DNA of 64,000 nt from Celeribacter baekdonensis (lineage in GTDB: Bacteria; Pseudomonadota; Alphaproteobacteria; Rhodobacterales; Rhodobacteraceae). Where the stretch lies: positions 2,480,001-2,544,000 of the forward strand of contig NZ_CP028475.1 of the NCBI RefSeq assembly GCF_003047105.1. The letters run 5' to 3'. The position numbers and the translations under genes were made by a program. How positions within the stretch are numbered: position 1 is the stretch's first letter; every line of letters begins with the position of its first letter. Positions 36,908-54,075 of this stretch are shown in pieces. Below the pieces are notes generated by a model. The model saw only the letters and a program-made list of their open reading frames with translations. It had not been told where the DNA came from and searched no databases.

Positions 36908-36928
36908 CGTGGAAACTGTCGCTCAGGA

Positions 36929-38938: not shown

Positions 38939-40243
38939 CTACATCATGTTGGGAACGAACAAGACGAGCGCCGGAAACGCGAGAATTAAGATCACGCGCA
39001 ACACATCCACCAAAAGAAAGGGCCCAAGACCGCGGAAGATCGTGCTGAGCTGCACGTCTTTGACCACGGATTTGAGCACGAAAGCGTTTAGACCAACGGG
39101 CGGTGTGATATAGCTCACCTCGGTGACGATCACGACATAGATGCCAAACCAAATTAGATCGAACCCTTGCGCCGCGACGATAGGATAAAAGATCGGCACG
39201 GTGAGTGTGATCATCGACAGACCCTCAAGGACGCAGCCAAGGATCAGGTAAATCACCGTGATGATCCCGATCACCGCCAAAGGATGATCGCCCACGGAGG
39301 TGACCAAGACTTGAATGTCGCGGCTCATCCCAGACAGGTTGACGTAGTTGGCAAAGGTCAGTGCACCGAACAGGATAAAAAACATCATCGCTGTGGTTTT
39401 GGCCGTTTCATAGAGGGTGACAAGCGTTTTGGTCACGGTCAGACGCCCTTGCAACAGCACCAAAAGGAACGCGCCCCCGGCCCCCATACCGGCACTTTCC
39501 GTCGGGGTGAACACACCAAAATAAATGCCGCCCATGACAAAGGCAAAAAGCCCAAGCGCCCCAGCGACCCCTTTGAGGGCGATGATGCGATCCTTGAGCG
39601 GAAGCTTGGCCTCAGTCGGCAACTCAAACTTGCCAAAATGCACCGAAATCCGAACCGCAAGCGCATATAGGATCACCCCCAAAATGCCCGGAAGGATGCC
39701 CGCGAGGAACAGCTTGCCGATGTCTTGTTGGGTCATGATGCCGTAAAACACCAAGATCACGGAGGGCGGAATCAGAATGCCCAAAGTCCCGCCTGCCGCG
39801 ATGGAGGCGGTCGAAAGGCTATCCGGGTAGCCAAATTTGCGCATGTTCGGCAGGGCGATTTTCGCCATGGTCGATGCGGTCGCCAAGGACGATCCGCAGA
39901 CCGAAGAAAACCCGCCACAGGCCACAACAGTCGCCACGGCCAGCCCACCTTTACGATGCCGAAGCCACGCATAAGCGGCAGAATAGAGATCGCGCGCGAT
40001 GCCCGATTGCACCACGAAATTCCCCATCATCAAAAACAGCGGCAGGATCGACAGCGAATAACTGCGGCTGTGTTCGAAATAGGTTTGCCCCAAAAGCGAA
40101 AAGGACGGGGACCACCCGATGATGGCCGCCGTGCCCGCCGTGCCGATCAGGGCCAAGGCAAAGGAAATCGGAACACCAAGAAACAACAGGATAAAGAGGA
40201 CAAGCGTCCCGAATTCCCAATGGGTCATGAGTTGAGCCATCAT
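38939..40243 (-). CDS. dctM: TRAP transporter large permease DctM
   Basis: 434 residues from the ATG at 40243, which overlaps the dctQ stop by one base; the frame stays open to 40474 but that would overlap dctQ and is rejected. About 12 membrane segments, with the TRAP-specific VACGGFSSVCGSSLATASTM and GGTLGILIPPSVILVFYGIM regions and the late SYITPPVGLNAFVLKSV. It is the ion-coupled channel of the transporter. It works with DctQ and the periplasmic DctP. Neighbouring aromatic-degradation genes on both sides suggest an aromatic or indole acid as cargo. Confidence 0.92.
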   Translation of the reverse strand: MMAQLMTHWEFGTLVLFILLFLGVPISFALALIGTAGTAAIIGWSPSFSLLGQTYFEHSRSYSLSILPLFLMMGNFVVQSGIARDLYSAAYAWLRHRKGGLAVATVVACGGFSSVCGSSLATASTMAKIALPNMRKFGYPDSLSTASIAAGGTLGILIPPSVILVFYGIMTQQDIGKLFLAGILPGILGVILYALAVRISVHFGKFELPTEAKLPLKDRIIALKGVAGALGLFAFVMGGIYFGVFTPTESAGMGAGGAFLLVLLQGRLTVTKTLVTLYETAKTTAMMFFILFGALTFANYVNLSGMSRDIQVLVTSVGDHPLAVIGIITVIYLILGCVLEGLSMITLTVPIFYPIVAAQGFDLIWFGIYVVIVTEVSYITPPVGLNAFVLKSVVKDVQLSTIFRGLGPFLLVDVLRVILILAFPALVLFVPNMM

Positions 40244-40764
40244 CAGGCCTCCTTTTTCGGGCGGTAAAAGACTTCGGCCAAGGTGAGTGCCACCGCGACC
40301 CAAGTCAGGGAAGAGGCCAGATACCCGATGGGCGCCACGGGCAGTTCCAATGTCGCTGTGGTGCCACCATAGCCAGCGACCTGAGCGGCGGTGATCCAAA
40401 GACGCCACGCAATCACGCCAAGCACACCTGCCGACATCAGCAAAACCACGGGCTCGCGCAGCCGATTGATCCAATCCGGCAGGCGGTCAATAAAGAGATC
40501 GACCGTCACATGTTCCCGGTCCAGGCTCGCCGCCGGGAGCCCCAAAAAGATGATCGCAGCCAAAAGCATTTCGGTCAGCTCGGTCGAGCCCGGCACCGGC
40601 GCATTCATCAAATAGCGCCCCAACACATCGACGACGGTCAAGCCCATCATCAAGATCAAAAGCACCGCGCAAAGCCAGGCGATCACATGGTGGAAAGGTC
40701 GGGCCACCGCGCGCGGCAGCCCATCCTCGTGATGTCCGGCAACAAGTTCGGACAGGTTCATCAT
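40243..40764 (-). CDS. dctQ: TRAP transporter small permease DctQ
   Basis: 173 residues with four membrane segments. Typical DctQ pattern: LTVVDVLGRYLMNAPVPGSTELTEMLL, a conserved region around residues 40-70 (quoted in part), LPAASLDREHVTVDLFIDRL, then two more helices. It overlaps dctP (ATGA at 40761-40764) and dctM. It is the membrane partner that stabilises DctM. Confidence 0.9.
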   Translation of the reverse strand: MMNLSELVAGHHEDGLPRAVARPFHHVIAWLCAVLLILMMGLTVVDVLGRYLMNAPVPGSTELTEMLLAAIIFLGLPAASLDREHVTVDLFIDRLPDWINRLREPVVLLMSAGVLGVIAWRLWITAAQVAGYGGTTATLELPVAPIGYLASSLTWVAVALTLAEVFYRPKKEA

Positions 40765-41783
40765 TTTTCGGACTCGATTTTAGCGATCTCGGACAGCATC
40801 ATGTCATAGGCCGCCTGCCCATCGACACCCGCTTCTGTGATCTGCGCGATCCGCTCATCCACGATCGGCGCAAGACGCGTCTTGAGCGCGGCAACTTCTT
40901 CGTCGGAGGCGGCTTTGATGGTGATTTTTCCCTCCATCTCAGCCCGCCCCTTGGCATCGGCAGCGTTCCACATTTCACCCGCGCGGCGCGCAAAGGCTTC
41001 GCCCAAAAGCGGTTCGATGAGGGCCTGATCCTCCGCCGAAATGCTGTTCCATTTGGCCTCATTCATGACCACGAACATGGCGGAATTATAAAGTCCACCT
41101 TTGACGGTGTAGCCATAGTCCAAGATGTCTTCGAGGCTAAAAAAGGTCACCGTTTCAAAGGGAAAGAAGATCCCGTCAGCAACGCCTTGGCTCAAAAGCT
41201 CATAGGCCTTGGACGACGGCCCTTCGACTGGAACGGCACCCAAATTTGTCGCAATGTCATGCGCCATGGTCGACCCGATGCGGATTTTTTGACCGGACAC
41301 ATCTTCTGCGGTTTCAATCGGTTTGCGCGAAAAAATCTCGCCGGGACCATGGGTGAAGACGGTCAAAACCTTGACGCCGTCATATTCGCCCGCGTCTTTC
41401 AACATCGCGTCTTGAACCCGCCAAAAGGCCACAGACGTGGCCACGGCATCATCGGAAAGGAACGGCATTTCCCCCAAGACGGAGGTTTTAAACCGGCCCG
41501 GCGTATAGCCGTGAACCGAATACGTGATGTCGGCGATGCCGTTTTTGGCCAAATCAAACGCCGCGGGGGGCGGGCCAAGCGGGGCGGGCAGAATGTTGAT
41601 TTTAACGCGACCTTCGGTGACTTTTTCGATGTCTGCGGCCCATGGCACGAACAACTCGGCCACTTGCGGATGGGTCGGGGGCAGCCAACTGTTCATGGTG
41701 AGAACGGTGTCGGCAAATGCCGCGCCGGAGAAGAGTGCAATGGCCGTCGCCGTGGCGGCGATCTTTTTAAGTTTCATGTTCAT
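40761..41783 (-). CDS. dctP: TRAP transporter periplasmic binding protein DctP
   Basis: 340 residues. The ATG at 41783 is chosen because AGGGA lies eight bases upstream; the GTG at 41789 is too close to it. Signal peptide (MNMKLKKIAATATAIALFSG, cleavage after AFA). Mature start DTVLTMNSWLPPTHPQVAEL is typical of DctP. The ligand-carboxylate arginine is expected in SGQKIRIGSTMAH. Ligands of the family are organic acids. The gene is divergent from the MarR gene of the iac cluster, and a palindrome in between could co-regulate both. Confidence 0.9.
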   Translation of the reverse strand: MNMKLKKIAATATAIALFSGAAFADTVLTMNSWLPPTHPQVAELFVPWAADIEKVTEGRVKINILPAPLGPPPAAFDLAKNGIADITYSVHGYTPGRFKTSVLGEMPFLSDDAVATSVAFWRVQDAMLKDAGEYDGVKVLTVFTHGPGEIFSRKPIETAEDVSGQKIRIGSTMAHDIATNLGAVPVEGPSSKAYELLSQGVADGIFFPFETVTFFSLEDILDYGYTVKGGLYNSAMFVVMNEAKWNSISAEDQALIEPLLGEAFARRAGEMWNAADAKGRAEMEGKITIKAASDEEVAALKTRLAPIVDERIAQITEAGVDGQAAYDMMLSEIAKIESEK

Positions 41784-41858
41784 TTTCACATTCCCTATTG
41801 GTGCATTTTGATGGTATGACGCCCTTTGTGGGTGTTCTTTATTTGTTGGAAAGTCACC

Positions 41859-41905: not shown

Positions 41906-42397
41906 ATGGGACTTGGAGAGACCGATCATGACCAAAATAGAGACCCCGAAGAGTCCCAAAAACCCGATCATTTCCGTGATACGTGGCCCTATTTTTGGAT
42001 CAACCGGGTCAACGCCTTTTACACGCGCGCGCTTGAAAAGCGGCTCAAACCCTTGGGTGTCGATGCGCCCCGTTGGCGCGTTCTGATCTCGCTGTACCAA
42101 CAGGACTACATGTCGGTCTCCGAGGTTGCGGATTTTTCCACTCTCAAACTCAACACCACCACCAAGATCGTTCAGCGCATGATCGCCGATGGTTTGGTGG
42201 AGACTCGCGTGCGCCCCACGGACGGGCGCGTGACCGAAGTCTGCCTGACCGAAAAGGGCGACGATTTGCGCGCCAAAGCGCTCAATGAGGTCTACCGCAT
42301 TCGCGACGAAAGTTTTCACAACGTCACGCCCGCGGAGATCAAAACTCTGAACGCCATCCTTGGAAAGATCACAACGGATCTTGGTCGGATTATCTGA
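41906..42397 (+). CDS. MarR-family regulator (IacR-like)
   Basis: 163 residues from 41906. The winged-helix core is clear: APRWRVLISLYQQDYMSVSE, VADFSTLKLNTTTKIVQRMI, DGLVETRVRPTDGRVTEVCL. In iac clusters a MarR protein (IacR) represses indole-acetate catabolism until the ligand is present, and this gene is convergent with iacG. The 5' end is uncertain: 41906 has no ribosome site, whereas ATG at 41928 behind GGAGAG would give a natural N-terminus (MTKIETPKSPKNP) if one C were added in the CCC at 41963-41965. A very early start at 41798 would lie before the likely promoter. Confidence 0.85.
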   Translation: MGLGETDHDQNRDPEESQKPDHFRDTWPYFWINRVNAFYTRALEKRLKPLGVDAPRWRVLISLYQQDYMSVSEVADFSTLKLNTTTKIVQRMIADGLVETRVRPTDGRVTEVCLTEKGDDLRAKALNEVYRIRDESFHNVTPAEIKTLNAILGKITTDLGRII

Positions 42398-42411
42398 GTT
42401 CAGCGTCACGC

Positions 42412-42918
42412 TCACGCCTGATCCTCCGTCACAAGATGATGGAAATCCCGGCTAAACCACACCAACCCATGACGCGCTTTGGCGCTCATGCGGACCTTTT
42501 CGACCTGACAGAAAAACACCGAATGCGTGCCCTCTTCCTGGCGACCTGTGATGCGGCAATCAAACGCGACATTGGCATCTGTGAGCATCGGCGCGCCGGT
42601 TGGACCCGCCTCCCAGTCACCAAATGAAAACCGATCCACGCCCTCGACAAAGCGGGCAAAAATGCCAGAGAGCTCCTGATGCTCGGCAGCCAAAACATTG
42701 ACCGCAAGCACACCGTTTTCCACGAATTTATCATGCGCAAACGCGCGGGTATTGATGCAGACCAACAGCGTCGGCGGGTTGTCCGTGACGGAGCAGACAG
42801 CCGAAGCGGTGATGCCATGCTTACCCGCAGGGCCGTCGGTGGTGATCAGGTTCACAGCGGCACCGAGGCGGCTCATGCCTTCGCGAAAGTCCTGTTGGGT
42901 TTGAGTCAGATCCATCAT
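42412..42918 (-). CDS. iacG: Flavin reductase (IacG-like)
   Basis: 168 residues of the DIM6/NTAB (HpaC-type) flavin reductase family: FREGMSRLGAAVNLITTDGP, GITASAVCSVTDNPPTLLVC and AVNVLAAEHQELSGIFA. It reduces free flavin with NAD(P)H and hands it to a partner monooxygenase, here IacA encoded upstream in the same operon. It is the last gene of the iac operon as seen here, seven bases after iacF, and is convergent with the MarR gene. Length is typical. Confidence 0.85.
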   Translation of the reverse strand: MMDLTQTQQDFREGMSRLGAAVNLITTDGPAGKHGITASAVCSVTDNPPTLLVCINTRAFAHDKFVENGVLAVNVLAAEHQELSGIFARFVEGVDRFSFGDWEAGPTGAPMLTDANVAFDCRITGRQEEGTHSVFFCQVEKVRMSAKARHGLVWFSRDFHHLVTEDQA

Positions 42919-42925
42919 CGTCCCC

Positions 42926-43891
42926 TTAAATATCCAACACGAGTTTTGGACCTTTGGCCCGCGAACAACAGACGCACATCACGTCGCCATCTTCGCGTTC
43001 CTCTTCGGTCAAAAACTGATCCCGATGATCAATCTCGCCCTCAAGAACGTCGGTCAAACAGGTGCCGCAAACACCCTCTTCGCATTTGACTTCGACCTTG
43101 ATGCCGGCACGCGCCAAAGCTTTGGCAATGGTGTCATCGCCCCCGACCGTCAGCGTCACACCACTTTCACGGCATTCGATTTCAAAGCTGTCGCCGGAGA
43201 GGTCCACATCCGCCGAGAAATATTCGCGGTGGACGTTGGCATTGGCATGGCCTGCCGCTTCCGCCGTCTCGATAACCCAATCCATGAACCCTTGCGGACC
43301 ACAGACATAAAGATGAGTGGCCCCAGAAGGGGCAGGCAAATCACGTTTGAGATCAAGCCGTTGTGCGGGGTCTTGGTCGTCATAGTGGAACACCACCTTA
43401 TCGGCAAACCCACAGCTCTCAAGCGTGTCGCGAAAGGCCGTCACATCCGCCGAGCGGGTGCAATAATGCAAGGTGAAATCTTTGCCGATGGCGTGCAACC
43501 GCTTGGCCATTGCGATCATCGGCGTGATGCCAATGCCGCCGCCCAAAAGCACAGTGGTCTCAGCGGTTTCATCCAGCGGGAAGTGATTGCGCGGGCCTTC
43601 GACGGTGAACACAGCACCCTCAACGGCCGTTTCATGAACCTTAAGCGAGCCACCGCGACTGTTCGGATCTTTGAGCACCCCGATTTCGTAAAAGTCGGTT
43701 TCCGCAGGATCAGAGCAGAGCGAATATTGCCGCCACATGTCGAGGTCAGGCAGGTAGAGATCAAGGTGTGCGCCCGCCTCGAACGGGACGATATTCTCGC
43801 CGCTTTCTGGCACGAACCGAATGCGAGAAATCCCGCCACGATCATCCATACGTGCGCTGACCTTTAGCTTTTGTGCGTTGTCTTTGGTCAT
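42926..43891 (-). CDS. iacF: Oxygenase reductase component with plant-type ferredoxin (IacF-like)
   Basis: 321 residues from the ATG at 43891 (GAGGTAATC upstream); the frame start at 43927 overlaps iacE. It has an FMN/NAD-binding reductase part (FEAGAHLDLYLPDLDMWRQY, VLLGGGIGITPMIAMA, LYVCGPQGFMDWV) and a C-terminal 2Fe-2S domain (CEEGVCGTCLTDVLEGE and CVCCSRA). This is the phthalate/vanillate oxygenase reductase type. It passes electrons from NAD(P)H to the Rieske oxygenase IacCD. It follows iacE with a two-base gap. Confidence 0.87.
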   Translation of the reverse strand: MTKDNAQKLKVSARMDDRGGISRIRFVPESGENIVPFEAGAHLDLYLPDLDMWRQYSLCSDPAETDFYEIGVLKDPNSRGGSLKVHETAVEGAVFTVEGPRNHFPLDETAETTVLLGGGIGITPMIAMAKRLHAIGKDFTLHYCTRSADVTAFRDTLESCGFADKVVFHYDDQDPAQRLDLKRDLPAPSGATHLYVCGPQGFMDWVIETAEAAGHANANVHREYFSADVDLSGDSFEIECRESGVTLTVGGDDTIAKALARAGIKVEVKCEEGVCGTCLTDVLEGEIDHRDQFLTEEEREDGDVMCVCCSRAKGPKLVLDI

Positions 43892-43893
43892 GA

Positions 43894-44655
43894 TTACCTC
43901 ACATACAACCCGCCGTTGACGTCCCAACAGGCACCGTTGACAAAACCCGCGTCAGGACCCGCCAACATGACAACCATCTTGGCCACAAAATCGGGATCGC
44001 CGAGTTTTTTGACCGGGATGCCCGCAATCGCGTTGCCGATATTGTCGCCCAAGACGTCACGCACCATCGGCGTGTCCATCGGACCCGGTGCGATAGCATT
44101 ACAGGTCACACCAAACGGTGCGAGATCGCGGGCAAAAATTTTAGTCAGCGTCAGGATCGCACCTTTTGAGGCGGCATAATGCGCCCCTGTCGCGGTGCCG
44201 CCGTTTTGACCGGCCAAAGAGGCCATATTGATCAAACGGCCATAGCCCTGCGCCTTGAAATAGCGGCCAAAAACCTGACACCCGGCAAAGGTGCCACCGG
44301 CGTTTGTCGCCATGACCTCGTTGAAAAACGCGGGATCAATGTCGAGCACGTTTTGCACAGCAGTGCGCGCGGCGTTGTTGACCAAAACCTCGACCGAACC
44401 ATAGCGGTCGACACATTTGTCGAGCACCGTTTGGAAATCCTCAGGCTTGGAGACATCCAATGTGGCGGTGATCGCAGTGTCCCCCGCGAGGTCCAATTCG
44501 GTGGCCAAGGCTTTGGCCTCCTCACCCGGATTCACGTCGGTGATGATCACTCGGTAGCCCGCTTTGTGCAGTGCCCGGACAGCCTGCGCGCCAAAACCGC
44601 GCGCACCGCCCGTGACCACTGCGGTCGGGATGTGTTCTGGAAGCGGCGCGCTCAT
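43894..44655 (-). CDS. iacE: Short-chain dehydrogenase (IacE-like)
   Basis: 253 residues with SDR motifs: VTGGARGFGAQAVRAL at the N-terminus, NNAA around residue 93, catalytic YAASKGAILTL, and a C-terminal GACWDVNGGLYV. In the characterised iac pathway IacE acts on 2-hydroxy-indole-acetate to give dioxindole-3-acetate. The start shares one base with the iacD stop (TGATG). Assignment is by operon position as well as by family. Confidence 0.85.
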   Translation of the reverse strand: MSAPLPEHIPTAVVTGGARGFGAQAVRALHKAGYRVIITDVNPGEEAKALATELDLAGDTAITATLDVSKPEDFQTVLDKCVDRYGSVEVLVNNAARTAVQNVLDIDPAFFNEVMATNAGGTFAGCQVFGRYFKAQGYGRLINMASLAGQNGGTATGAHYAASKGAILTLTKIFARDLAPFGVTCNAIAPGPMDTPMVRDVLGDNIGNAIAGIPVKKLGDPDFVAKMVVMLAGPDAGFVNGACWDVNGGLYVR

Positions 44656-45149
44656 CAGAACAAGTAGCTGAACGAATTCAGCATCCCATCAGAGTTCAAA
44701 AGACGGATGATCTTTTGGTGCAGTTTGAACCCGCCCTCGGTGGATTGGAGGGTGTATGCGACATTGCCTGCCCAGGTGCGTTGACGGCCAAATTTATCCT
44801 CGATGACATGTTCGGCGCAGGTCACGGTGACCAAATCGCCGTCTGTGGCCTCAATCCGAAACCGCGACAGCGTGCGCACCGTCAAAGCGGGCGGCGCGGA
44901 CGAGATGGAAAAGCCTTGGTGGAAACGCCCAATGCGATCTTTGCGCATTTTGGCGTTGTCATAACACAGGTTGACGCTGTTTTTGAAATCCACCGTGTCG
45001 CCGATCGGCATGATGTAAAGACCGTCATCGGTCCACAGATCGAGCCACTCGTCATATTCCTTGGCATCCAGCATTGCGCTTTCGGCCCAGATGAAAGCTG
45101 TGACATCAGCCAATAGGGATTTGGTGTCGATTTTGCTCATTTCAGTCAT
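44655..45149 (-). CDS. iacD: Ring-hydroxylating dioxygenase small subunit (IacD-like)
   Basis: 164 residues of the NTF2-fold beta-subunit family: EYDEWLDLWTDDGLYIMPIG, MRKDRIGRFHQGFSISSAPP and a C-terminal FKLHQKIIRLLNSDG. It pairs with the Rieske alpha subunit IacC. The ATG at 45149 overlaps the iacC stop (ATGA), which is why it is preferred over 45170. It has a structural role and binds no metal. Confidence 0.88.
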   Translation of the reverse strand: MTEMSKIDTKSLLADVTAFIWAESAMLDAKEYDEWLDLWTDDGLYIMPIGDTVDFKNSVNLCYDNAKMRKDRIGRFHQGFSISSAPPALTVRTLSRFRIEATDGDLVTVTCAEHVIEDKFGRQRTWAGNVAYTLQSTEGGFKLHQKIIRLLNSDGMLNSFSYLF

Positions 45150-46423
45150 TTTGCCATCAAGCCTTTCCACATTTTGTAAGCGGCACGCATGCCGGTCTCA
45201 GCGGAGATGTGACCACGCGGACCATTCGGTCCGTCGACCTCATCGACCATGCCGCGGTTCACGAGGATCTTGAGCTCTTCGCCCCCTTTGGTGCCGCGCT
45301 GAATGCGTTCCCAGACTTCGGCGTCATCCGGCGAGCCAAAGCCCATCGGCCCTTGGAAATGCTCATGTAAACGAATGCGCGCTTGGTTGGCGGCATCCGG
45401 GCCACCGTCCATGCCGATGGCGATATGGCGGATGTCGGTTTGCTCCACGGAAATTGGCGTGAGCACACGAAAGAACGCCAAGGAGAAGGACACGTTGGGG
45501 AAGAGGTTGAGGTTGAACCCCGCCCCGCCCACGGCACGCACGATTTTCTTGACCTGATCTTCGGGATAGCCCTCATCACGGATTTCTTGTGCCAGCTCTT
45601 CGAAACGGGCCGGGATCGGCGCATCAAGGTTGGCGTCGAGGTCTTCGAGCTCCGGGATCATCATCATGATCGAGTGACCGTTGCCCAGATCCTCAACCCA
45701 GCCTTTGCCCTTGTCGAGGAAATCGAACATCTCTTCGGTCTGACCGTCGAGCGTTTGCATAAAGCTCTTGTGCACGACCGGGAAATGGTAGGCGTCGGTG
45801 GTGTTTTCCAACTGCACTTTCCAGTTCATCGGCACGGTGAACTGATGCTCGCCCAACACTTTGACCGGGAAGCCACCGCCCTGTTTCATGAACAGGTCAA
45901 TGTAACGACACACGGCCTCACCCAAGAACTCTTCGAGCGGCTCCATGTCCTCTTTAAAGGTCGCAAACACCATACCGTTGTAGGACTCGGTGCGCAGCTT
46001 CAACAGACCATGCTGAGCCTTGTCGAAATCATCGCCGTACTGTTCCGGGTAAGGCAGTGCGCGCAAAGAACCGTCAAGCCCGTAGCCCCAGCCGTGATAG
46101 GGGCATTGGAACGACGAGGTCTTGCCCTTTTTGACTTCACAGACGGTGGCAGCGCGGTGACGGCACCGATTGACCATGCAATGGATTTTGCCCTTGCGGT
46201 CGCGGACCACGATCACCGGTTCAAGACCGACGTTGGACAGTTTGAACGAGCCTTTGTCAGGGAATTCGCTTTCATGTGCGATCCAGACCCAGGTGTTTTT
46301 GAAAATCTTTTCCATCTCTTCGTCAAAGAGATCGGGATCTTCGTACATGGCGGTTCCGACCAGCGCATTCTCTTCGTCGTAGAGTGCGTCAAGGTCACTG
46401 AACTTTGGCATATCAAGAGACAT
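45146..46423 (-). CDS. iacC: Rieske ring-hydroxylating dioxygenase large subunit (IacC-like)
   Basis: 425 residues. Rieske cluster ligands are Cys87, His89, Cys107 and His110 (NRCRHRAATVCE and FQCPYHGWGYG). The mononuclear iron site includes His213 and His218 in TTDAYHFPVVHKSF. In the iac pathway IacC with IacD and reductase IacF attacks the oxidised indole-acetate intermediate on the way to catechol. AGGAGCC precedes the ATG. The protein is full length. Confidence 0.9.
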   Translation of the reverse strand: MSLDMPKFSDLDALYDEENALVGTAMYEDPDLFDEEMEKIFKNTWVWIAHESEFPDKGSFKLSNVGLEPVIVVRDRKGKIHCMVNRCRHRAATVCEVKKGKTSSFQCPYHGWGYGLDGSLRALPYPEQYGDDFDKAQHGLLKLRTESYNGMVFATFKEDMEPLEEFLGEAVCRYIDLFMKQGGGFPVKVLGEHQFTVPMNWKVQLENTTDAYHFPVVHKSFMQTLDGQTEEMFDFLDKGKGWVEDLGNGHSIMMMIPELEDLDANLDAPIPARFEELAQEIRDEGYPEDQVKKIVRAVGGAGFNLNLFPNVSFSLAFFRVLTPISVEQTDIRHIAIGMDGGPDAANQARIRLHEHFQGPMGFGSPDDAEVWERIQRGTKGGEELKILVNRGMVDEVDGPNGPRGHISAETGMRAAYKMWKGLMAK

Positions 46424-46478
46424 GTTGGCTCCTTCTCAGTGGCATCAGGATGGCGTCGAAACCGCGCACCCCGGAAAA

Positions 46479-46841
46479 TTAAAGTTGCGGGATTTCCAAA
46501 GCGCGACCCATACGCGCCTCGACGGTCATGTATTTCCAAAGCCGGTCATTGCCCTCGCCCACCACGATGGTGCGCAGCAAGTTACAGGCGGCCATAACGT
46601 CTTCGCGGGTCGGGAAATCACAGAGCATGTACCATGTGAACGGAAAGCCCGAGGAGGCCCCGACCATGGTCTGATCGTCATCAAACGTCCCGACGATTTC
46701 GACGCCTTCCATCTGGTCAATGCCGGACATCAACTCTTGGGTGGCTTTCCAAACCGGGCCGATTTGGTCAAACGGCAGGCTGAAAAACGTCGGATGGTTG
46801 TTAAAGCACAGCAGGGTGCGGATCGGCTTTTGGTCGCTCAT
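46479..46841 (-). CDS. iacB: IacB-like protein of unknown function
   Basis: 120 residues from the ATG at 46841, behind GAGGACGAG. No known catalytic motif. It has one repeated-looking alpha/beta pattern (LCFNNHPTFFSLPFDQIGPV; FPFTWYMLCDFPTREDVMAA) that suggests a dimeric alpha-beta barrel. The position between iacA and iacC is that of iacB in known clusters. IacB has no established activity but is co-conserved with the pathway. Confidence 0.75.
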   Translation of the reverse strand: MSDQKPIRTLLCFNNHPTFFSLPFDQIGPVWKATQELMSGIDQMEGVEIVGTFDDDQTMVGASSGFPFTWYMLCDFPTREDVMAACNLLRTIVVGEGNDRLWKYMTVEARMGRALEIPQL

Positions 46842-46886
46842 AGACTCGTCCTCTTTCGGAATATTTCGTGCAATCAATCGGGTGTC

Positions 46887-48038
46887 TTAGGGGTATCCGG
46901 GCATAGTCGGTTGGTCGAAAAAGCCAGCACCTGCGGCAGTCCACGTGCCCTCGCCCATAAAAGCGTGTTGCGCGACACACGCCGCGTCCACCATGCAACG
47001 CCCCAAGGTATGGCCGGTTTCCATCACGCCAGACCCGCCGATGACAAAGGCGATGCGGGCCGCCTCTGCACCATCGCGGGCGGCTTTGGTCGCCACCAAA
47101 CGCAGGCGAATTTTCATGTCCTGAGACACATCGCCGGTGGACTTGAGTTGCTCCCAAGCCGCCTCAATCATGTCGTAAAACGCCGCGCGCGCCCCCATCA
47201 AGATGCCCTGCGCCTTGGCGAATTCGGACTGCACGTAGGGGCGGGCGCCCGGATTTGGTGCGCCGGTGATCGAAGCGCGATCAGCCGCGTCTTTCACCAA
47301 GAAATCAAGTGCTTCACGTGCCGCGCCCAAGGCCACGACAGCCAAAACCTGTGATGCCAAAGCCATCGCCGGATATTTGAAAATCAGATCATCCATCTCG
47401 GGTCTGCCGCCGCGGATAAAGGTCCACTCAGGGGCCACCACGACATCTTCGACCACCGCGTCGTGCGAGCCGGTCGCAGACAAGCCGATGGTGTTCCACG
47501 TCTCATCGACAAAGACCCTGTCGCGCGGCAACACCGCCACACGTGGCAACGGCGTGTCATCGCCTTCGACCTTGATGCCCGCACCAACCAGGGACGACCC
47601 CATGATACCAGAGCACCACGGCCAGCGGCCTTTGACCTTAAACCCACCATCAACCTTGTCGGCCTTTTGCGGCGGGAACATTGCCCCCGCAAACACGGTG
47701 TTCGGATCTTTGCCGTAGATTTGCGCATAAGTGTCCGACGGCAGTGCCGCCAAATAGGTGGCGGAGACGCCAAAACTTGCGACCCAACCGGTGGAGGCAT
47801 CCGCCGCAGAGATGTCTTCAATCAGACGGCAGAACTCAGCGGGGGTTTTCTCATCGCCACCAAAACGAGTGGGCACAAAAGAGCGATAAACGCCAATGTG
47901 TTGCAGCCGCTCCACCACATCCAACGGCACATGGCGCAACTGAGTAAACTCGGCCCGACGAGCACGGATTTCATCTAAGACGGAGATGTAGAGCGCATCA
48001 TTTGCTTGGTCTGCGGAGAGTTTGGACAGTGAGGTCAT
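46887..48038 (-). CDS. iacA: Acyl-CoA-dehydrogenase-fold flavin monooxygenase (IacA-like)
   Basis: 383 residues from the ATG at 48038, overlapping the amidase stop. The fold is that of acyl-CoA dehydrogenases, but it resembles the reduced-flavin-dependent monooxygenase branch (HsaA-like): VPTRFGGDEKTPAEFCRLIE, ASTGWVASFGVSATYLAALP, and FKVKGRWPWCSGI. It lacks the usual catalytic glutamate context of true dehydrogenases. In known iac systems IacA hydroxylates indole-3-acetate at C2 using flavin from IacG. It is central to the pathway assignment. Confidence 0.85.
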   Translation of the reverse strand: MTSLSKLSADQANDALYISVLDEIRARRAEFTQLRHVPLDVVERLQHIGVYRSFVPTRFGGDEKTPAEFCRLIEDISAADASTGWVASFGVSATYLAALPSDTYAQIYGKDPNTVFAGAMFPPQKADKVDGGFKVKGRWPWCSGIMGSSLVGAGIKVEGDDTPLPRVAVLPRDRVFVDETWNTIGLSATGSHDAVVEDVVVAPEWTFIRGGRPEMDDLIFKYPAMALASQVLAVVALGAAREALDFLVKDAADRASITGAPNPGARPYVQSEFAKAQGILMGARAAFYDMIEAAWEQLKSTGDVSQDMKIRLRLVATKAARDGAEAARIAFVIGGSGVMETGHTLGRCMVDAACVAQHAFMGEGTWTAAGAGFFDQPTMPGYP

Positions 48039-49195
48039 TGGCTTTGGTCCTTTGACTGAAAATCGGGAACACAAGAGACGACCCAGCGCGCAATCGCGCA
48101 AAGTCGGGCCTCTTCGCCTTTACGCCCAACCAATTGCAGCCCGATGGGCAAGCCGGTGTTCGTGCGCGCGGGCAAGGTGATTGCGGGGTGGCCGCTGAGG
48201 TTAAACGGGCGCAAAAAGCGCGTCAGCGGCAGAATGGTTTGTGGGTCTTGCGCCTCAATCAGCGTTGGCGGGATCACCGGCAAGGCGGGCGTGACAAGCG
48301 CGTCATACTGTTCCAAAAGCACGTCCACTTCGGCAGTGAAGGCGGTACGCACCGCTTCGGCCTTGGCCAATTGCGCCTCGGTCACGTTGCGTGCCGCCGT
48401 CAGGCGTTTGTGAATATCCGCGCCAAGCGGTGCGCCTTCGTCGAGCAAATGCCCAAATGCGGCGGCGGTCTCATAGGAAATCACCGTCATTCCGGCCTGA
48501 AACGCCGCTTCAAAATGGGTGAGGCGTTCATAGCCCATGCCCGGATAGGCATCCATCAAAGCATAGACCAAAGGATCGCCCACTTCGGCCACAGGATCAG
48601 ATTTGATCCGGGTCAATTTGGGCGCGTGGATGAGGGTTTCAGGAACAAAACTCGGGTCCATGGACGCCATAGCAGTCTCGATCATATCCATGTCACGGGC
48701 AAAGGCCCCGACACAATCAAGCGAGCTGTTTCTAGGCGACAGGCCCTTACGGCTGATCCGGCCATAGGTTGGCTTGATCCCGATCACGCCACAACAGATC
48801 GCCGGCTGACGCACCGATCCGCCAGTGTCGGTGCCAATGGCAAAATCACATAACCCTGCGGCCACGGCGACGGCAGACCCGGACGACGAGCCGCCCGGAA
48901 TGCGGTCCGGCCAGTTGGGGTTCACAGGAGTCCCGTGAAATCCATTCACGCCCGTCATCCCAAACGCCAGTTCGTGCATATTGGCTTTGCCGATGATCCG
49001 GCATCCGGCCATCAGAAGCGCGTCAACCACCACGGCATTTTCGGTTGCGGGCGCGGCAGAGGCGAAGGCTTCTGAGCCACAGCCCGTCACGGTACCGACA
49101 ATGTCGATACAATCTTTGACCACGACAGTTGGCCCAGCGCCGCCCAAAGACAGCTCTTGGACCAGCGCGTGAGAGCTGGTGACGTGTGCGTTCAT
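48035..49195 (-). CDS. iacH: Amidase signature family hydrolase (IacH-like)
   Basis: 386 residues. The Ser-cisSer-Lys triad is visible: lysine in TVVVKDCIDIVG, serine in GTDTGGSVRQPA and nucleophile in RIPGGSSSGSAVAVAAG. The family usually has 400-500 residues, so this one is compact. In iac clusters the amidase IacH is conserved; it may hydrolyse an amide intermediate or indole-acetamide. Here it is the first gene of the operon, directly behind the divergent promoter region. Confidence 0.85.
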   Translation of the reverse strand: MNAHVTSSHALVQELSLGGAGPTVVVKDCIDIVGTVTGCGSEAFASAAPATENAVVVDALLMAGCRIIGKANMHELAFGMTGVNGFHGTPVNPNWPDRIPGGSSSGSAVAVAAGLCDFAIGTDTGGSVRQPAICCGVIGIKPTYGRISRKGLSPRNSSLDCVGAFARDMDMIETAMASMDPSFVPETLIHAPKLTRIKSDPVAEVGDPLVYALMDAYPGMGYERLTHFEAAFQAGMTVISYETAAAFGHLLDEGAPLGADIHKRLTAARNVTEAQLAKAEAVRTAFTAEVDVLLEQYDALVTPALPVIPPTLIEAQDPQTILPLTRFLRPFNLSGHPAITLPARTNTGLPIGLQLVGRKGEEARLCAIARWVVSCVPDFQSKDQSQ

Positions 49196-49445
49196 TTTCT
49201 GGTCCCTGTTTGGGCTTTGGCGTCATCTGGCGTGACGCTGTTACAGTAATCTTCACGTATTTACGTCACAGGTCAAGTGAAAGATGAAACAATTTCTTTG
49301 CGCATTCACGCAGAGTGTCGTAAACCCTGTTTACGGTAATTTTACTGCTTCATCCGCAGGCAACACTCCTCCGCAAGCTCAATTTTTGCCCGAGGTTTGT
49401 CTCAAAATCTAAGGTGCGACACAGCGCCGAACCGAAAGGACGCAC
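49196..49445. promoter_or_regulatory. Divergent iacH/iacI promoter region with several palindromes
   Basis: This 250-base gap contains a perfect CGTAAAC-CCT-GTTTACG palindrome at 49319-49335, two copies of TTACnGTAA (TTACAGTAA at 49241-49249 and TTACGGTAA at 49331-49339, 90 bases apart) and CGTATTTACG at 49256-49265. All share the TTAC/GTAA core. They look like sites for one regulator controlling both iacH-G and iacI. Confidence 0.6.
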
Positions 49446-50012
49446 ATGACTGACTCCGACACCATCGCCGCCCTCACCAAACGCCTTGAGCTGCTCGAAG
49501 CAGAGGCCGAGGTCCGCCGCGTACAATCCCGCTACATGTTCCTTTGCGACACACCGATGCCCGAATATGGCGTCAAAGATGATGCAGAACGCATTGATTT
49601 AATTATGGAACTCTTCTCAGAAGAGGCTGTTTGGGAAGGCGTAGGTGAGTATTACACCGGACAGTTTGGCCGCGCCGAAGGCAAAGCCGCCGTGCGCAAA
49701 CACTTCGAAGGGTTCTGGGGCGGCAAAACCGATCCGGCGCTGATTCTCAACTGTCACTACCTGACCTCAGAGCAAATCAACGTGGCCCCTGACGGGCTGA
49801 CGGCAACGGGTCAATGGGTCCATATGCAGCCGTGGTTGTTCTCCGATGGCAAAGCGCTTTTGCGTTCTTCGCGCCTGTTTAATGCGTTCAAAAAATGTGA
49901 CGACGGCACTTGGCGTTACACCCGCAATCGCACGGAAAACGTGTTTGTTGCGCCGCTTCCCGCCACTTGGGCCTCGGATTATCCCTCTGCCTCGGTTTTG
50001 ATGAAACCGTAA
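49446..50012 (+). CDS. iacI: SnoaL/NTF2-like protein (IacI-like)
   Basis: 188 residues. An N-terminal helix (TKRLELLEAEAEVRRVQSRY) is followed by an NTF2-like cone fold (LFSEEAVWEGVGEYYTGQFG, ILNCHYLTSEQINV, RYTRNRTENVFV). AAAGGACG precedes the ATG. In other iac clusters IacI is a conserved small protein without an established reaction. It is transcribed away from the main operon but shares its regulatory region. SnoaL-like proteins often act as isomerases, hydratases or cyclases. Confidence 0.8.
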   Translation: MTDSDTIAALTKRLELLEAEAEVRRVQSRYMFLCDTPMPEYGVKDDAERIDLIMELFSEEAVWEGVGEYYTGQFGRAEGKAAVRKHFEGFWGGKTDPALILNCHYLTSEQINVAPDGLTATGQWVHMQPWLFSDGKALLRSSRLFNAFKKCDDGTWRYTRNRTENVFVAPLPATWASDYPSASVLMKP

Positions 50013-50032
50013 AATTGCAGCGACTCACACGC

Positions 50033-50060
50033 AAAAGGGCGCCCTAAGAGGCGCCCTTTT
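50033..50060. terminator. Bidirectional terminator between iacI and dctM
   Basis: AAAAGGGCGCC at 50033-50043 pairs with GGCGCCCTTTT at 50050-50060 around a 6-base loop, with T/A runs at the two ends. It separates two convergent genes. Confidence 0.82.
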
Positions 50061-50074
50061 TCAATCGGATCGTC

Positions 50075-51400
50075 TCACCAAAGTGCAATTTTTGGCACCA
50101 AAAGCGTGAGCACCAAAATCCCAATTTGCATCGCCACAAAGGGTAGAACCGCCCGATAGATTTGGGTGATCTCCACATCCGGCACCGCATTTTTGAGGTA
50201 AAACAACGCCATTCCCACCGGAGGTGTCAAAAACGAGGTTTGCAGGCAAATCGCCATCAGAATGGCCACCCACGCCGGGTCATGTCCCAAAGCGGTCAAA
50301 ACCGGCAAAACCAAAGGGGCTACGATCAGGATGATTTCCATCCAATCAAGAAAGAATCCCAAGAGAAACACGATGAACAGGATCAGAATCAGTGTTCCGG
50401 TTGGCGGCAAAGGGATGGCGTGAAGCGCAGTTTCGATCAATTCATCTCCGCCATACCCGCGCAAGACGACAGAGAAACAGGACGCGCCAAAAATCAACGC
50501 AAAGAGAAACGCGGTGGTCGTGCCTGTGCTTTCACACACCTCACGAAACCCGGACCACGTGAGCCGTTTCGACATCAATGCAATCAACGTCGCCCCTGCT
50601 GCACCGACGCCAGAGGCCTCGGTCGGCGTGGCAATCCCAAAGACAATGGACCCCAAAACCGCAATGACCAAAAGCAACGGCGCGACCAGTGAGCCGATCA
50701 AATCAAGCACGACCTCGCGCACCTCACGCCCCGCTTCAATCGGCTTGGCCGGAGCGCGATCTGGAAAGCGCAGCGCGATAAACACGGCATAGGCCACATA
50801 GGCCAGCGCCAACAACAGCCCCGGCACCATCGCGCCACGAAACAAATCTCCAACAGGGATTTGCAACTGATCCCCCATAACGATGAGCATAATCGACGGC
50901 GGGATGAGAATGCCCAAACACCCGGTCGCCCCGACAACACCAAGGCCGAGCCGGTCATCATAGCCCGCACCGCGCATCGCCGGCATCGCGATCGTCGCGA
51001 GCAAAACGACAGAGGCACCAATGATCCCGGTGGAGGCAGCAAGCACCACGCCGATCAACACGACAGAGACCGCCATACCCCCCGGAACCACCCGCAACAC
51101 CTGGTGCATCCGGGTCAAAAGCCGCTCGGCAACGCCGGATTTGTCCAACATCATGCCCATGAAGACGAACATGGAGATTGGGATGAGAGAATAGCTTGAG
51201 AGCGTGTCAAAAATCCGATTGGCAACAAAGCCGATCATCCGCAACGAGGCCATATCGGCATCAACGTTAAACGCATCGAGGAACGTGCCTAAAGCCGCGA
51301 ACAGAACCGCGACACCGCCCAAAACGAACGCAATCGGAAAGCCCGAGAACATCACCACCATGAAGGAGGCGAAAAGAAGGAAAACAAAGAGAATGTCCAT
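50075..51400 (-). CDS. dctM: TRAP transporter large permease DctM (second system)
   Basis: 441 residues, about 12 membrane segments. TRAP motifs: VGATGCLGILIPPSIMLIVM, GIATPTEASGVGAAGATLIA and SFLTPPVGMALFYLKNAV. It shares an operon with dctQ (nine-base gap) and dctP upstream. Located directly beside the iac cluster, it is a candidate carrier for indole or aromatic acids, but the ligand is not shown by sequence. Confidence 0.92.
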   Translation of the reverse strand: MDILFVFLLFASFMVVMFSGFPIAFVLGGVAVLFAALGTFLDAFNVDADMASLRMIGFVANRIFDTLSSYSLIPISMFVFMGMMLDKSGVAERLLTRMHQVLRVVPGGMAVSVVLIGVVLAASTGIIGASVVLLATIAMPAMRGAGYDDRLGLGVVGATGCLGILIPPSIMLIVMGDQLQIPVGDLFRGAMVPGLLLALAYVAYAVFIALRFPDRAPAKPIEAGREVREVVLDLIGSLVAPLLLVIAVLGSIVFGIATPTEASGVGAAGATLIALMSKRLTWSGFREVCESTGTTTAFLFALIFGASCFSVVLRGYGGDELIETALHAIPLPPTGTLILILFIVFLLGFFLDWMEIILIVAPLVLPVLTALGHDPAWVAILMAICLQTSFLTPPVGMALFYLKNAVPDVEITQIYRAVLPFVAMQIGILVLTLLVPKIALW

Positions 51401-51409: not shown

Positions 51410-51922
51410 TTAGTCTTTGTAGGTCTTGGGACCAAACAGAAAGAGGATGGATTTCAGAGCAATGGCCACGGCTTGCAGCGCCAAAAGACTGAGCCCGGCG
51501 GCCATCACGAATTTGATGATGTAGCGCGCGGGCAAGCCCGATGGCATGGGCGAGCCTTCTTTGAGGCGCCACGAATAGCCAAAAATCGTCCATGCGCTAT
51601 CTGTCACGAACCACAGGAATGGCAGCAACAAAAACACCACGCCGCACAGTTCGACGATGGCCTTTTGCGTGGCCGACATTTTGACGTGAAACGCATCAAC
51701 CCGCACATGGGCGTCTTTTTGATAGGTCCATGCCAGACAGGACATCACCGCCACGGCATTGAGATGCCATTGCAGTTCTTCCAACTCGATCGAACCGATG
51801 CCAAAGACATAACGTGAGGTGACATTGACCAGAATGGTGAGCATCAAGAGCGGCAAAAACAACGCGCCGATTTTACCAACCCGGATGATGAACCCCTCAA
51901 TGAACGCGATAACGATTTGCAT
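51410..51922 (-). CDS. dctQ: TRAP transporter small permease DctQ (second system)
   Basis: 170 residues from the ATG at 51922; the longer frame to 51991 would overlap dctP and lacks a site. Four membrane segments, with LVNVTSRYVFGIGSIELEEL and YQKDAHVRVDAFHVKM typical of DctQ. It assembles with DctM. Confidence 0.87.
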   Translation of the reverse strand: MQIVIAFIEGFIIRVGKIGALFLPLLMLTILVNVTSRYVFGIGSIELEELQWHLNAVAVMSCLAWTYQKDAHVRVDAFHVKMSATQKAIVELCGVVFLLLPFLWFVTDSAWTIFGYSWRLKEGSPMPSGLPARYIIKFVMAAGLSLLALQAVAIALKSILFLFGPKTYKD

Positions 51923-51972
51923 GATGTGTTTCCCCGCAAATGCGCGCCGGAGAGGCCCCCGGCGCAGATGGC

Positions 51973-53007
51973 TTAACGACGTTCGGCCCAAGGCGCGACA
52001 GAGGCGCGATAGGCGGTCAGCGAATCCCAGACCCGTTTGAAATCGGCGTCTTTGGCAGTTTGTTCTGCGATCACCTCGTCAAAAGCGGCATGGAGATGCT
52101 CCAAGACTTCCGGCGGAAAGGATTTGATCTCAACACCGGCGGCTTCAAACTCGGCCACGGCTTTGGCATTCAACGCCATGGTCGAGGTGATGGATTCAAG
52201 GTTCACGGCCTTACAGCTCTCTTCGATCAAAGCCTGTTGGCTTGCATCCAAACTGTCCCATTTCGCCTGATTGACGATCAACTCATTCATCGCAGCGGGT
52301 TGGTGCCAACCGGGGAGGTAATAGTATTTGCCCACTTGCTGAAGACCCAGAGTGATGTCGATGGCGGGCATGGACAATTCGGTGCCATCAATCAGACCTT
52401 TTTCAAGACCCGGATAGATCTCGCCACCCGGCAAAAGCACGATGGACGCACCGACCTTGGCCATGGCTTCACCTGCCAGACCGGCAAACCGAACTTTCTT
52501 GCCTTTGAGGTCGTCGATGGTGTTGATTTCGAAATTGTACCACCCGCCGGCTTCGCTATCCATCAGACCGCAGGGAATGGTCACAACGCCCTGTTTGGCA
52601 TAGATTTCGGACCAGATTTCGCGGCCTCCGCCGTCATACAGCCAGGCGGTGTGAGTGATCGCATCGGGGCCAAAGGGGATGCCGCCAAACAATTGCACCG
52701 CCGGGAAACGACCCGCGACATAAAGCGGCGAGGTGATACCGGCATCCAGCGAGCCCTGTTGCACCGCGTCGAAAATCTGCAGCGACGGCACTAATTTGCC
52801 CGCACCGTAAACGGTCACATCAAGCGAACCGCCGGAGGTTTCATTGAGCTTATCGCCCAAATAGGCTGCGTTGGCACCACTTGCGGGCATGGTCAAAGGC
52901 CATGCGCTTTGGATGTCAAGTTTTGTTCCCTTGGCCATAACCGGGGCGGCCACCAGTGCAGAAACCGTAGCGGCCACGGCGGCCAGAGATTTGATGTGCG
53001 TCTTCAT
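51973..53007 (-). CDS. dctP: TRAP transporter periplasmic binding protein DctP (second system)
   Basis: 344 residues with a signal peptide (MKTHIKSLAAVAATVSALVA, cleavage after VMA). The mature part starts KGTKLDIQSAWPLTMPASGA. The conserved ligand arginine is in GKKVRFAGLAGEAM. GGCEIYPGL-like loops (LLPGGEIYPGLEKGLIDGTE) and many tryptophans (LPGWHQPAAMNEL) are typical of the longer DctP branch that binds larger acids. It is followed by dctQ and dctM. Aromatic or indole acids fit the context, as inference. Confidence 0.88.
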   Translation of the reverse strand: MKTHIKSLAAVAATVSALVAAPVMAKGTKLDIQSAWPLTMPASGANAAYLGDKLNETSGGSLDVTVYGAGKLVPSLQIFDAVQQGSLDAGITSPLYVAGRFPAVQLFGGIPFGPDAITHTAWLYDGGGREIWSEIYAKQGVVTIPCGLMDSEAGGWYNFEINTIDDLKGKKVRFAGLAGEAMAKVGASIVLLPGGEIYPGLEKGLIDGTELSMPAIDITLGLQQVGKYYYLPGWHQPAAMNELIVNQAKWDSLDASQQALIEESCKAVNLESITSTMALNAKAVAEFEAAGVEIKSFPPEVLEHLHAAFDEVIAEQTAKDADFKRVWDSLTAYRASVAPWAERR

Positions 53008-53048
53008 TGTTTTCTCCTATTGGGTTAGTTCGACCTTTCCGGCCGGAT

Positions 53049-53833
53049 TCACGAGACGTGTCGTGGGTGACGCACCAAGGCCGCAATCTGTGCTGCGGCG
53101 GCCTCAGTGCTGGGTTGCTGTGCGATAAGCAAATCGAGGAAGGGGTCCTCAACTTCGGTACGCGCGCCCGAGAGTTCTTCGAGAACGGCAAGGGCGCAAA
53201 AAGGGACATAACTTTCGGCCTACCTTCGCTGATGTTGAACTGGATGCGCGAAATACCGTCTGTGGTCTCGCCGTTGTAATCTTGGTTATAGGGAATGCCA
53301 GCTTCGACACCGGCTTTGACCAAAGCCTCCATCACCGGGTGCGGCTCGTAGTCCTTGATCACACGAAGCGGCCCGCCGGTGGCACGGTAGTCATCCGTAC
53401 CTCCTTGAAAATCTTCGATTTTCTTGAAATACGGCAAGACAGATTGCCAATCCCAACCATAGTTGCCCTGAAGCGCCCACGCGTCATAATCGGCCTTGTG
53501 GCCACGCACATAGATCATGCCGTTCATCGACGAACAGCCGCCCATGACCTTACCGCGTGGCCAATAGACTTGGCGGTTTCCGGCATGTTTTTGCGGCACC
53601 GTCGAAAAGCCCCAATCGTAATCGGAAAACCAAATGTCGATCACCCGCAGCGGGGTGGAGACCATGTCGGGCGTGTCACCGTGACCTGCTTCAATCAGAA
53701 GGACGGACACTGCGGGATCTTCGGACAGGCGCGCAGCAATCACGCATCCGGCGGACCCGGCACCACAGATGATATAGTCAAATGTTTTGCCGTTCAGATC
53801 GGCGGTGAGCTGGGGATATGTATGGGCATTCAT
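53049..53833 (-). pseudogene. GMC oxidoreductase, truncated and fused to an unrelated tail
   Basis: From the ATG at 53833 about 200 residues are clear GMC flavin oxidoreductase: FDYIICGAGSAGCVIAARLS, YWPRGKVMGGCSSMNGMIYV, DYDAWALQGNYGWDWQSVLP and GISRIQFNISEGR. GMC enzymes have about 530 residues, so the substrate and C-terminal domains with the His-Asn/His pair are absent. After about 53225 the frame is lost. Another minus-strand frame from about 53215 to the stop at 53049 reads AVLEELSGARTEVEDPFLDL and ends QIAALVRHP, apparently the end of a different gene. An internal deletion is the simplest reading. Not expected to be active. Confidence 0.75.
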
Positions 53834-54075
53834 GGGGAGATGAGCCTCTTGGCAATGGACAAAGAAAGGGCGGTTCGTGCCAGCGGAGCCGACACGAGGA
53901 AGGGAACTTTGCAGTGACAAGGATGGCGTCCAACCGAGGGCATCTCTCGATCTTCAGTTCAATCCTCTCTGTTGTCGTGGCCCCTCTATGGCGGGGGCTT
54001 CACGGGTCAGCTGCGCGTCAAGTGCACAGCGTCATTAGGCCCCGCCCCTCGGGGAAAGGGACAGGGCCATGCAGT

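Follow-up and report, generated by a model that had tools for sequence, protein, structure and literature searches.

Gene content of the iac locus

Analysis of a window of 64,000 nucleotides (nt) from the 4.44-Mb genome of Celeribacter baekdonensis (labelled G000; window C4 2480001-2544000) showed the presence of a complete set of ten genes of the iac type, predicted to serve the catabolism of indole-3-acetic acid (IAA), and, beside it, of genes encoding a hydroxyquinol-type intradiol dioxygenase and maleylacetate reductase (Table 1). The locus is probably an IacR-regulated iac locus opening the indole ring of indole-3-acetates, located in an island at approximately 37-56 kb of the window, with a second tail of hydroxyquinol type.

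The complete cluster claimed in the original prediction was recovered from open reading frames (ORFs) and Pfam matches, with all ten genes at the places, on the strands and in the order given there; its coordinates covered the iac genes exactly, while the neighbouring ring-cleavage genes, aldehyde dehydrogenase and two TRAP transporters were omitted. The roseobacter host was also recognized correctly, IacC being 99% identical to that of C. baekdonensis B30 and DSM 27375. The minus-strand operon iacHABCDEFG extends from 49195 to 42412, and its genes overlap, as the start of iacA with the stop of iacH, or are at most 55 nt apart; gene starts inside listed ORFs were placed at the first ATG compatible with the neighbouring gene. 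Gene iacI is divergent from iacH, and a gap of 14 nt separates the convergent MarR gene from the stop of iacG. Adjacent Rieske genes iacC and iacD with iacE and iacF, as well as the set iacA, iacB, iacG, iacH and iacI, are those of iac-type loci; iacB is assigned by position and conservation only, with no Pfam or NCBIfam match of IacB at E 0.001. Solved relatives of IacA in the PDB are Rv3094c, 3-HSA hydroxylase and HPA hydroxylase C2, and in iac loci of alphaproteobacteria other than Celeribacter its homologues are mostly 59-73% identical.

The iac cluster of Pseudomonas putida 1290 is described as iacABCDEFGRHI, with catechol as the product (PMC11373566). The window shares with it all ten gene families, the core order A-B-C-D-E-F-G and an IacR-type MarR regulator, but iacH leads, iacI is divergent, iacR is convergent, and the hydroxyquinol pair and TRAP transporters adjoin.

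The best PDB matches of the MarR protein are 7kua (98 bits), 7l19 (83 bits) and 7l1i (80 bits), the next being 3cjn (41 bits); the first three are IacR of P. putida, E. soli and A. baumannii (PMC11630574, PMC9613470). The IadR structures 3cdh, 7kfo and 7kym reach 33, 32 and 30 bits, which places the protein outside the IadR group. Accordingly, the proposal that this gene is the iac regulator agrees with its sequence grouping, and the locus is iac-like, not iad-like, since its regulator is nearest to IacR and IadR scores do not exceed 33 bits. By these match scores, the regulator is assigned to the IacR group and the locus is of the iac type. The iac pathway leads to catechol and the iad pathway to anthranilate, Ruegeria pomeroyi being counted among the iad loci (PMC9613470). 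The iad loci of Variovorax paradoxus CL14 and R. pomeroyi, the latter also a roseobacter, are similar to the window in IAA degradation under a MarR regulator and differ from it in gene content, regulator group and product (PMC9613470).

The public iac loci used for comparison (n = 80) are the best 80 of 491 iacC candidates and are thus biased towards relatives of the window; with 7 plasmid loci they form a mapped set of 87 loci, found through iacC, in which genes were mapped by tblastn. In addition, 390 sampled Rhodobacterales genomes (the order sample) were searched, with iacC called at E 1e-80. Homologues of all nine genes iacA-I were found by tblastn in 70 of the 80 public iacC loci, which excludes a chance gathering of genes. 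The grouping of IacA and IacC with non-indole oxygenases, named in the original prediction as a possible objection, was checked in part, from the IacC matches: identity to IacC drops from 50.1% to 36.4%, with nothing between, among the 40 matches listed of 940 plasmid records, and all 87 mapped loci contain homologues of further iac genes. A cluster that acts on another aromatic compound or is iad-like, following the isatin/anthranilate route with no indole-acetate pathway, is very improbable given the regulator nearest to IacR, not IadR, the presence of iacA, iacB, iacG, iacH and iacI and the wide identity gap between IacC and other listed Rieske proteins, although family matches alone leave the substrate unfixed and no Iac-named NCBIfam model is among the matches listed for the window proteins.

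The distribution of iac in Rhodobacterales is patchy: iacC was found in 11 of the 390 sampled genomes, and it is plasmid-borne in records of Sagittula, Gemmobacter, Martelella and Thioclava. An Acinetobacter baumannii record, from a strain not known as a tested degrader, shows 63% identity to IacC and 42% to IacA. Four loci of Halomonadaceae (L143, L151, L152 and L164) encode IacC similar to that of alphaproteobacteria (80-84%), yet IacA and IacG are approximately 50% and 31% identical to those of the window; judging by these identities, they are mosaic operons, formed perhaps by partial gene transfer or replacement.

The hydroxyquinol-type dioxygenase is closest to 6-chlorohydroxyquinol dioxygenase 8r2x (433 bits), PnpC 3n9t (261 bits) and hydroxyquinol dioxygenase 1tmx (248 bits), with (chloro)catechol dioxygenases at no more than 143 bits. 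Its VFGPF segment, common to many relatives, presumably has a role in specificity. The gene is located 24 nt downstream of the reductase gene, which lies on the same strand downstream of TRAP 1 and encodes a protein closest to solved maleylacetate reductases. By sequence, the same two activities are encoded in the rol and rhc operons of Corynebacterium glutamicum, where the pair is linked to resorcinol-type substrates (PMC7764795), in contrast to the window, where it is linked to iac.

Table 1. Features of the window, with positions counted from its first nucleotide
Feature	Position	Strand	Basis
OCD/mu-crystallin protein, 'tyramine oxidase subunit B', neighbour module	31081-32220	-	NF004848 705 bits, cut-off 362
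Inverted repeat with A and T runs, dioxygenase/tctA gap, terminator-like on both strands	36861-36928		Read by eye from sequence
Hydroxyquinol-type intradiol dioxygenase	36929-37768	-	PDB matches
Maleylacetate reductase	37793-38851	-	PDB 3hl0 357, 3w5s 352 bits, both maleylacetate reductases; fifth match 110
TRAP 1 large permease	38939-~40243	-	
TRAP 1 small permease	40243-40764	-	
TRAP 1 binding protein	40761-41789	-	DctP
iacR, MarR regulator	41906-42397	+	Pfam MarR; best PDB matches IacR
iacG, flavin reductase	42412-42918	-	Flavin_Reduct 126 bits
iacF, oxygenase reductase	42926-43891	-	Fer2 + NAD_binding_1
iacE, short-chain dehydrogenase	43894-44655	-	adh_short_C2 174 bits
iacD, Rieske oxygenase small subunit	44655-45149	-	Ring_hydroxyl_B 71 bits
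iacC, Rieske oxygenase large subunit	45146-46423	-	Pfam Rieske + Ring_hydroxyl_A; alignment; tree
iacB, small protein, no recognised domain	46479-46841	-	Position conserved in iac loci
iacA, flavin-dependent monooxygenase, acyl-CoA dehydrogenase fold	46887-48038 (listed ORF to 48101)	-	Pfam Acyl-CoA_dh_2
iacH, amidase, first gene of iac operon	48035-49195	-	Pfam Amidase 251 bits; gene order
Putative IacR operator 1, iacH-iacI intergenic	49235-49260		Matrix 29.8; top score in 20 shuffles (two-base blocks) of the window 14.4
Putative IacR operator 2, iacH-iacI intergenic	49325-49350		Matrix 24.9; exact match TTACGGTAATTTTAC at 49331-49345
iacI, SnoaL-like	49446-50012	+	SnoaL_4 50 bits
Inverted repeat with T run, iacI/TRAP 2 gap, terminator-like	50013-50074		Read by eye from sequence
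TRAP 2 large permease	50075-51400	-	DctM
TRAP 2 small permease	51410-51991	-	
TRAP 2 binding protein	51973-53007	-	
Aldehyde dehydrogenase, phenylacetaldehyde type	54076-55599	-	StyD model 655 bits (below cut-off 850); PDB 4o5h phenylacetaldehyde dehydrogenase 512 bits
Putative IacR operator, upstream of aldehyde dehydrogenase gene	55640-55665		Matrix 18.3; top score in 20 shuffles of the window 14.4

Among the other 10 order-sample genomes with iac, 8 have orthologues of TRAP 1 adjoining it, and the binding protein of TRAP 2 is nearest to SmoM 2hzk (213 bits) and the ketoacid-binding protein 7ug8 (206 bits). An N-terminal fragment of a GMC oxidoreductase (52916-53920, minus strand) ends at the start of the TRAP 2 genes; Martelella AD-3 (L005) has a longer copy, adjacent to this same aldehyde dehydrogenase gene, and the annotation of Gemmobacter fulvus (L004) contains two pieces. 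Genes of the tripartite tricarboxylate transporter TctCBA (33799-36860, plus strand) are convergent to the dioxygenase gene; in Sagittula E-37 (L003) and Phaeobacter HF9A (L174), too, such genes adjoin the pair of reductase and dioxygenase.

The 'tyramine oxidase subunit B' marker was found in 9 of the 390 genomes, namely, in 4 of 11 with iac and 5 of 379 without (Fisher p 4e-5), and in each of the four iac genomes it shares the contig with iac, at a distance of roughly 4-12 kb. Beside this gene in the window, a DAO-family FAD oxidoreductase is split over two overlapping frames (29300-30591, minus strand), so that the amine arm is maybe broken in this strain; unbroken relatives are present in two C. 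baekdonensis genomes, and the split may be a real frameshift or a sequencing error.

Recurrence of the hydroxyquinol pair and a putative IacR operator

On the locus maps, dioxygenase genes were counted at no less than 60% identity and aldehyde dehydrogenase genes at no less than 65%. Within the few kb flanking the cluster, the dioxygenase gene was found in 26 of the 80 public loci, in 25 with the reductase gene; catechol genes were found in 7 and both tails in 2. Of the 87 mapped loci, 30 contain the dioxygenase, 28 of them together with the reductase; catechol genes are recognisable in 11 loci, 4 loci have both tails and 50 have neither. The aldehyde dehydrogenase gene is present in 21 of the 30 loci with the dioxygenase and in 5 of the 57 without it (Fisher p 6e-9, kinship uncorrected). 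Strong dioxygenase orthologues (>400 bits) were detected in 16 genomes of the order sample, 3 of the 11 with iac and 13 of the 379 without (Fisher p 0.008), and in the three iac genomes a copy lies at most 6 kb from iac.

The arrangement of the genes varies. Reductase, dioxygenase and dehydrogenase genes are located ahead of iacI in Rhizobium, Ciceribacter and Pararhodobacter, and are inverted in Azospirillum. A Tct transporter lies in between in Sagittula and Phaeobacter HF9A. The pair follows a TRAP system in Celeribacter, and is found downstream of the MarR gene in Acidocella and Agrobacterium MEJ076. In 6 of 15 Halomonadaceae it stands directly after iacI, the ends of the tblastn matches of iacI and the reductase being 23-28 nt apart in L143, L151, L152 and L164, consistent with a shared operon. 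A small gene of the Dabb family, annotated so in L004 and L005, precedes the reductase-dioxygenase-dehydrogenase genes in L137 (1924-2271), L004 (4187-4543) and L005 (660-1010); its ORF family was found in 5 dioxygenase-bearing loci.

Two quick trees, with SH-aLRT support only, were built. Presence of the tail needs 13 changes on the tree of 88 IacC proteins, and the iac label needs 3 changes on the tree of 61 dioxygenases, from which window duplicates, copies of G205 and G255, and L123, represented by a fragmented match, were omitted. The iac-linked dioxygenases comprise 25 alphaproteobacterial sequences grouped together (support 81), with 6 from Halomonadaceae and 1 from Acidocella apart. 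Separate associations of iac with the dioxygenase, of three origins, are likely from this topology, and not certain, because the starred branches alone force only 1 change.

A putative operator emerged only from comparison across loci; direct comparison of the iacH-iacI intergenic region with five other upstream regions of the window gave matches at chance level. The exact palindrome TTACNGTAA is conserved between iacH and iacI in 38 of the 48 loci with divergent iacI; the intergenic sequence contains 47 sites in 17.2 kb, and the rest of the same loci 12 in 1018 kb. A matrix trained on 38 sites, one per locus, gave, outside the iacH-iacI span, 47 matches with a score of at least 20 in 1.51 Mb and 0 in 5.48 Mb shuffled in two-base blocks. 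Each of the 47 has a mapped pathway gene at most 800 nt downstream, namely, iacH or iacI of a locus without divergent iacI (13 sites), the reductase or dioxygenase gene (15), TRAP 1 (7), TRAP 2 (3), the aldehyde dehydrogenase gene (4), the MarR gene (3) or an AraC gene (2). From their position and conservation, we infer that the palindromic sites are bound by IacR. The score of operator 1 of the window is partly circular, since the near relative L110, with the same site, belongs to the training set.

The region upstream of the reductase-dioxygenase block was testable in 27 of the 30 dioxygenase loci, L146, L165 and L174 having too little flank. A site with a score of at least 20 is present within 1.3 kb upstream of the block in 15 of the 27; in these site-positive loci, random stretches of the same locus, which may contain the site, reach the block score in 1-15% of draws.

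Predicted pathway and alternative explanations

In the known pathway, IacA/IacG and IacE/IacB convert IAA via 2-hydroxy- (2-oxo-) to dioxindole-acetate, which IacCDF, perhaps with IacI, convert to catechol (PMC9613470). In C. baekdonensis, plain IAA would be degraded to catechol and further by the organism's own intradiol dioxygenase and muconate cycloisomerase (L190), and ring-hydroxylated indole-acetate would be converted by the same Iac enzymes to hydroxyquinol, which the adjacent dioxygenase and reductase would transform to maleylacetate and 3-oxoadipate. The TRAP systems would import the acids, and the aldehyde dehydrogenase would feed in indole-acetaldehydes; together with the amine-oxidase-like module of some loci, it points to aldehyde or amine precursors. 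Hydroxyquinol has one more hydroxyl than catechol, so a ring-hydroxylated substrate is its simplest source, and the presence of the hydroxyquinol tail suggests such a substrate. No further ring hydroxylase was recognised among ORF clusters present in at least 5 of the 31 dioxygenase-bearing loci, a weak test, since the greedy ORF caller misses genes (iacC was called in 18 of 31) and labels and the first 60 residues of one representative per cluster were judged. Our guess for the substrate is 5-hydroxyindole-3-acetate: by chemical inference, a 5-hydroxyl (or 6-hydroxyl) would give 1,2,4-benzenetriol because the diol would arise at carbons 3a and 7a of the indole.

Several observations weigh against this interpretation. 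The dioxygenase was not found in the stretch covered of 54 of the 80 public loci, including three other Celeribacter (L112-L114), so the iac core can exist without it; at these loci, where sequence beyond the cluster has a median of approximately 7 kb on each side, absence of the dioxygenase is not proven. The majority of the order-sample genomes with a strong dioxygenase orthologue (13 of 16) have no iac. No site with a score of at least 20 is located upstream of the block in 12 of the 27 testable loci, including three Celeribacter relatives and six Halomonadaceae. Co-regulation of the pair with iac is unsupported in the window, because no operator was found ahead of its TRAP1-reductase-dioxygenase operon (best nearby matrix score 6.6), and the three nearest dioxygenase-bearing relatives, L110, L111 (DSM 27375) and L149, have no match of at least 14 outside the iacH-iacI region. 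In addition, the catechol route of the genome is incomplete by annotation: no muconolactone isomerase PF02426 was detected by profile search, and no match to catechol 2,3-dioxygenase TIGR03211 is over the cut-off of 320 (best match 289 bits).

Aromatic catabolic genes often cluster, and the locus may be a plain iac locus in which the hydroxyquinol pair, serving an unrelated aromatic compound, e.g. a resorcinol-like one, is merely co-located in a catabolic island. The strong orthologues in genomes without iac and the missing operator at the window's pair are consistent with this explanation, which is nevertheless unlikely in view of the linkage in 26 of the 80 loci, the position directly after iacI in Halomonadaceae, the three separated dioxygenase groups and the iac-type site ahead of the pair in more than half of the testable loci. 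The genome also already contains a second hydroxyquinol set (L191, G000 C4 990000-1008000; dioxygenase 66%, maleylacetate reductase 50%) beside a gene of FAD aromatic hydroxylase, and the dioxygenase of this set falls outside the iac-linked clade, among unlinked dioxygenases.

The gene of muconate cycloisomerase (TIGR02534, 489 bits, over the cut-off) was found beside that of an intradiol dioxygenase at C4 2.86 Mb (L190), and absence of a catechol route, considered from the missing PF02426, was rejected on this basis. PF02426 isomerase is present in only 1 of the 11 iac genomes of the order sample; the 10 others contain intradiol dioxygenases and, at least in C. baekdonensis, muconate cycloisomerase, and an alternative isomerase may act in place of PF02426. 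Matches to TIGR03211 were found in all 11 genomes, none over the cut-off, and catechol may also be degraded by a meta route. The hydroxyquinol tail is probably extra, not a replacement, since a separate muconate locus and a second hydroxyquinol set are present and 4 of the 87 loci have both tails.

Maleylacetate reductase has no role after ortho-cleavage of catechol, and it accompanies the dioxygenase in 25 of the 26 public loci; together with the muconate cycloisomerase/intradiol pair elsewhere in the genome and the additional catechol genes of 4 loci, this makes it improbable that the pair cleaves the normal catechol product, with a hydroxyquinol-type dioxygenase of relaxed specificity and the reductase secondary. 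Such cleavage would agree with the classical iac pathway, which is described as ending in catechol (PMC9613470, PMC7225977), and with the lack of PF02426 in 10 of the 11 iac genomes.

Another possibility is that the Iac enzymes themselves add one ring hydroxylation and convert IAA to hydroxyquinol, by-passing catechol in these lineages. Phenol hydroxylases (HPA hydroxylase C2 and 3-HSA hydroxylase) are among the solved relatives of IacA, and the steps from dioxindole-acetate to catechol are reported as not resolved (PMC9613470); the same-genus loci L112-L114 (L112 from C. litoreus), with no such dioxygenase in the stretch covered, genome G356, which gave no match at E 1e-80 over its full length, and the occurrence of both tails together leave little probability for this route.

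The interpretation with a ring-hydroxylated substrate can be extended, tentatively and with less than even confidence, to two alternative or additive tails of iac, catechol for IAA and hydroxyquinol for ring-hydroxylated indole-acetates. The island would then be a complete unit for degradation of serotonin and 5-hydroxyindole-acetate (or tryptamine and IAA) in marine and plant-associated bacteria, forming an IacR regulon.

Relation to known systems and significance

The genes catABC are reported close to the iac cluster (PMC7225977), unlike the muconate cycloisomerase/intradiol locus of C. baekdonensis, located elsewhere in the genome. Marine iac clusters are known in Marinomonas sp. MWYL1 and NFXS50, that of MWYL1 being called functional (PMC11373566). 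Their arrangement differs (iacR-aldolase-reductase-ABC transporter-iacABICDEFG-iacH), catechol genes are located elsewhere, and the table of that paper contains no hydroxyquinol pair (PMC11373566). The ecological novelty of auxin consumption by a roseobacter, suggested in the original prediction, is weakened by the published iad-like locus of R. pomeroyi (PMC9613470) and the marine iac of Marinomonas (PMC11373566). No publication tying iac to hydroxyquinol or 5-hydroxyindole-acetate was found in a search mostly outside subscription literature, the matches opened concerning hydroxyquinolines or C. glutamicum. Accordingly, iac loci, marine iac and IAA degradation by roseobacters are already known, and the variant features, as far as gene content indicates, are the hydroxyquinol tail and the extended putative regulon.

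At present, iac loci are read as pathways from IAA to catechol, with the steps after dioxindole-acetate described as unresolved (PMC9613470, PMC7225977). The recurrent hydroxyquinol tail gives a testable prediction on the substrate range and a marker by which types of iac loci can be told apart, and the operator matrix can be used to search for the genes of the IacR regulon, including transporters, aldehyde dehydrogenase and ring cleavage. The tail suggests that hydroxylated relatives of auxin may be consumed as well. Should serotonin-type indoles serve as substrates, tail-bearing marine roseobacters, Rhizobium, Azospirillum and Halomonas would consume more algal and plant indole signals than IAA alone.

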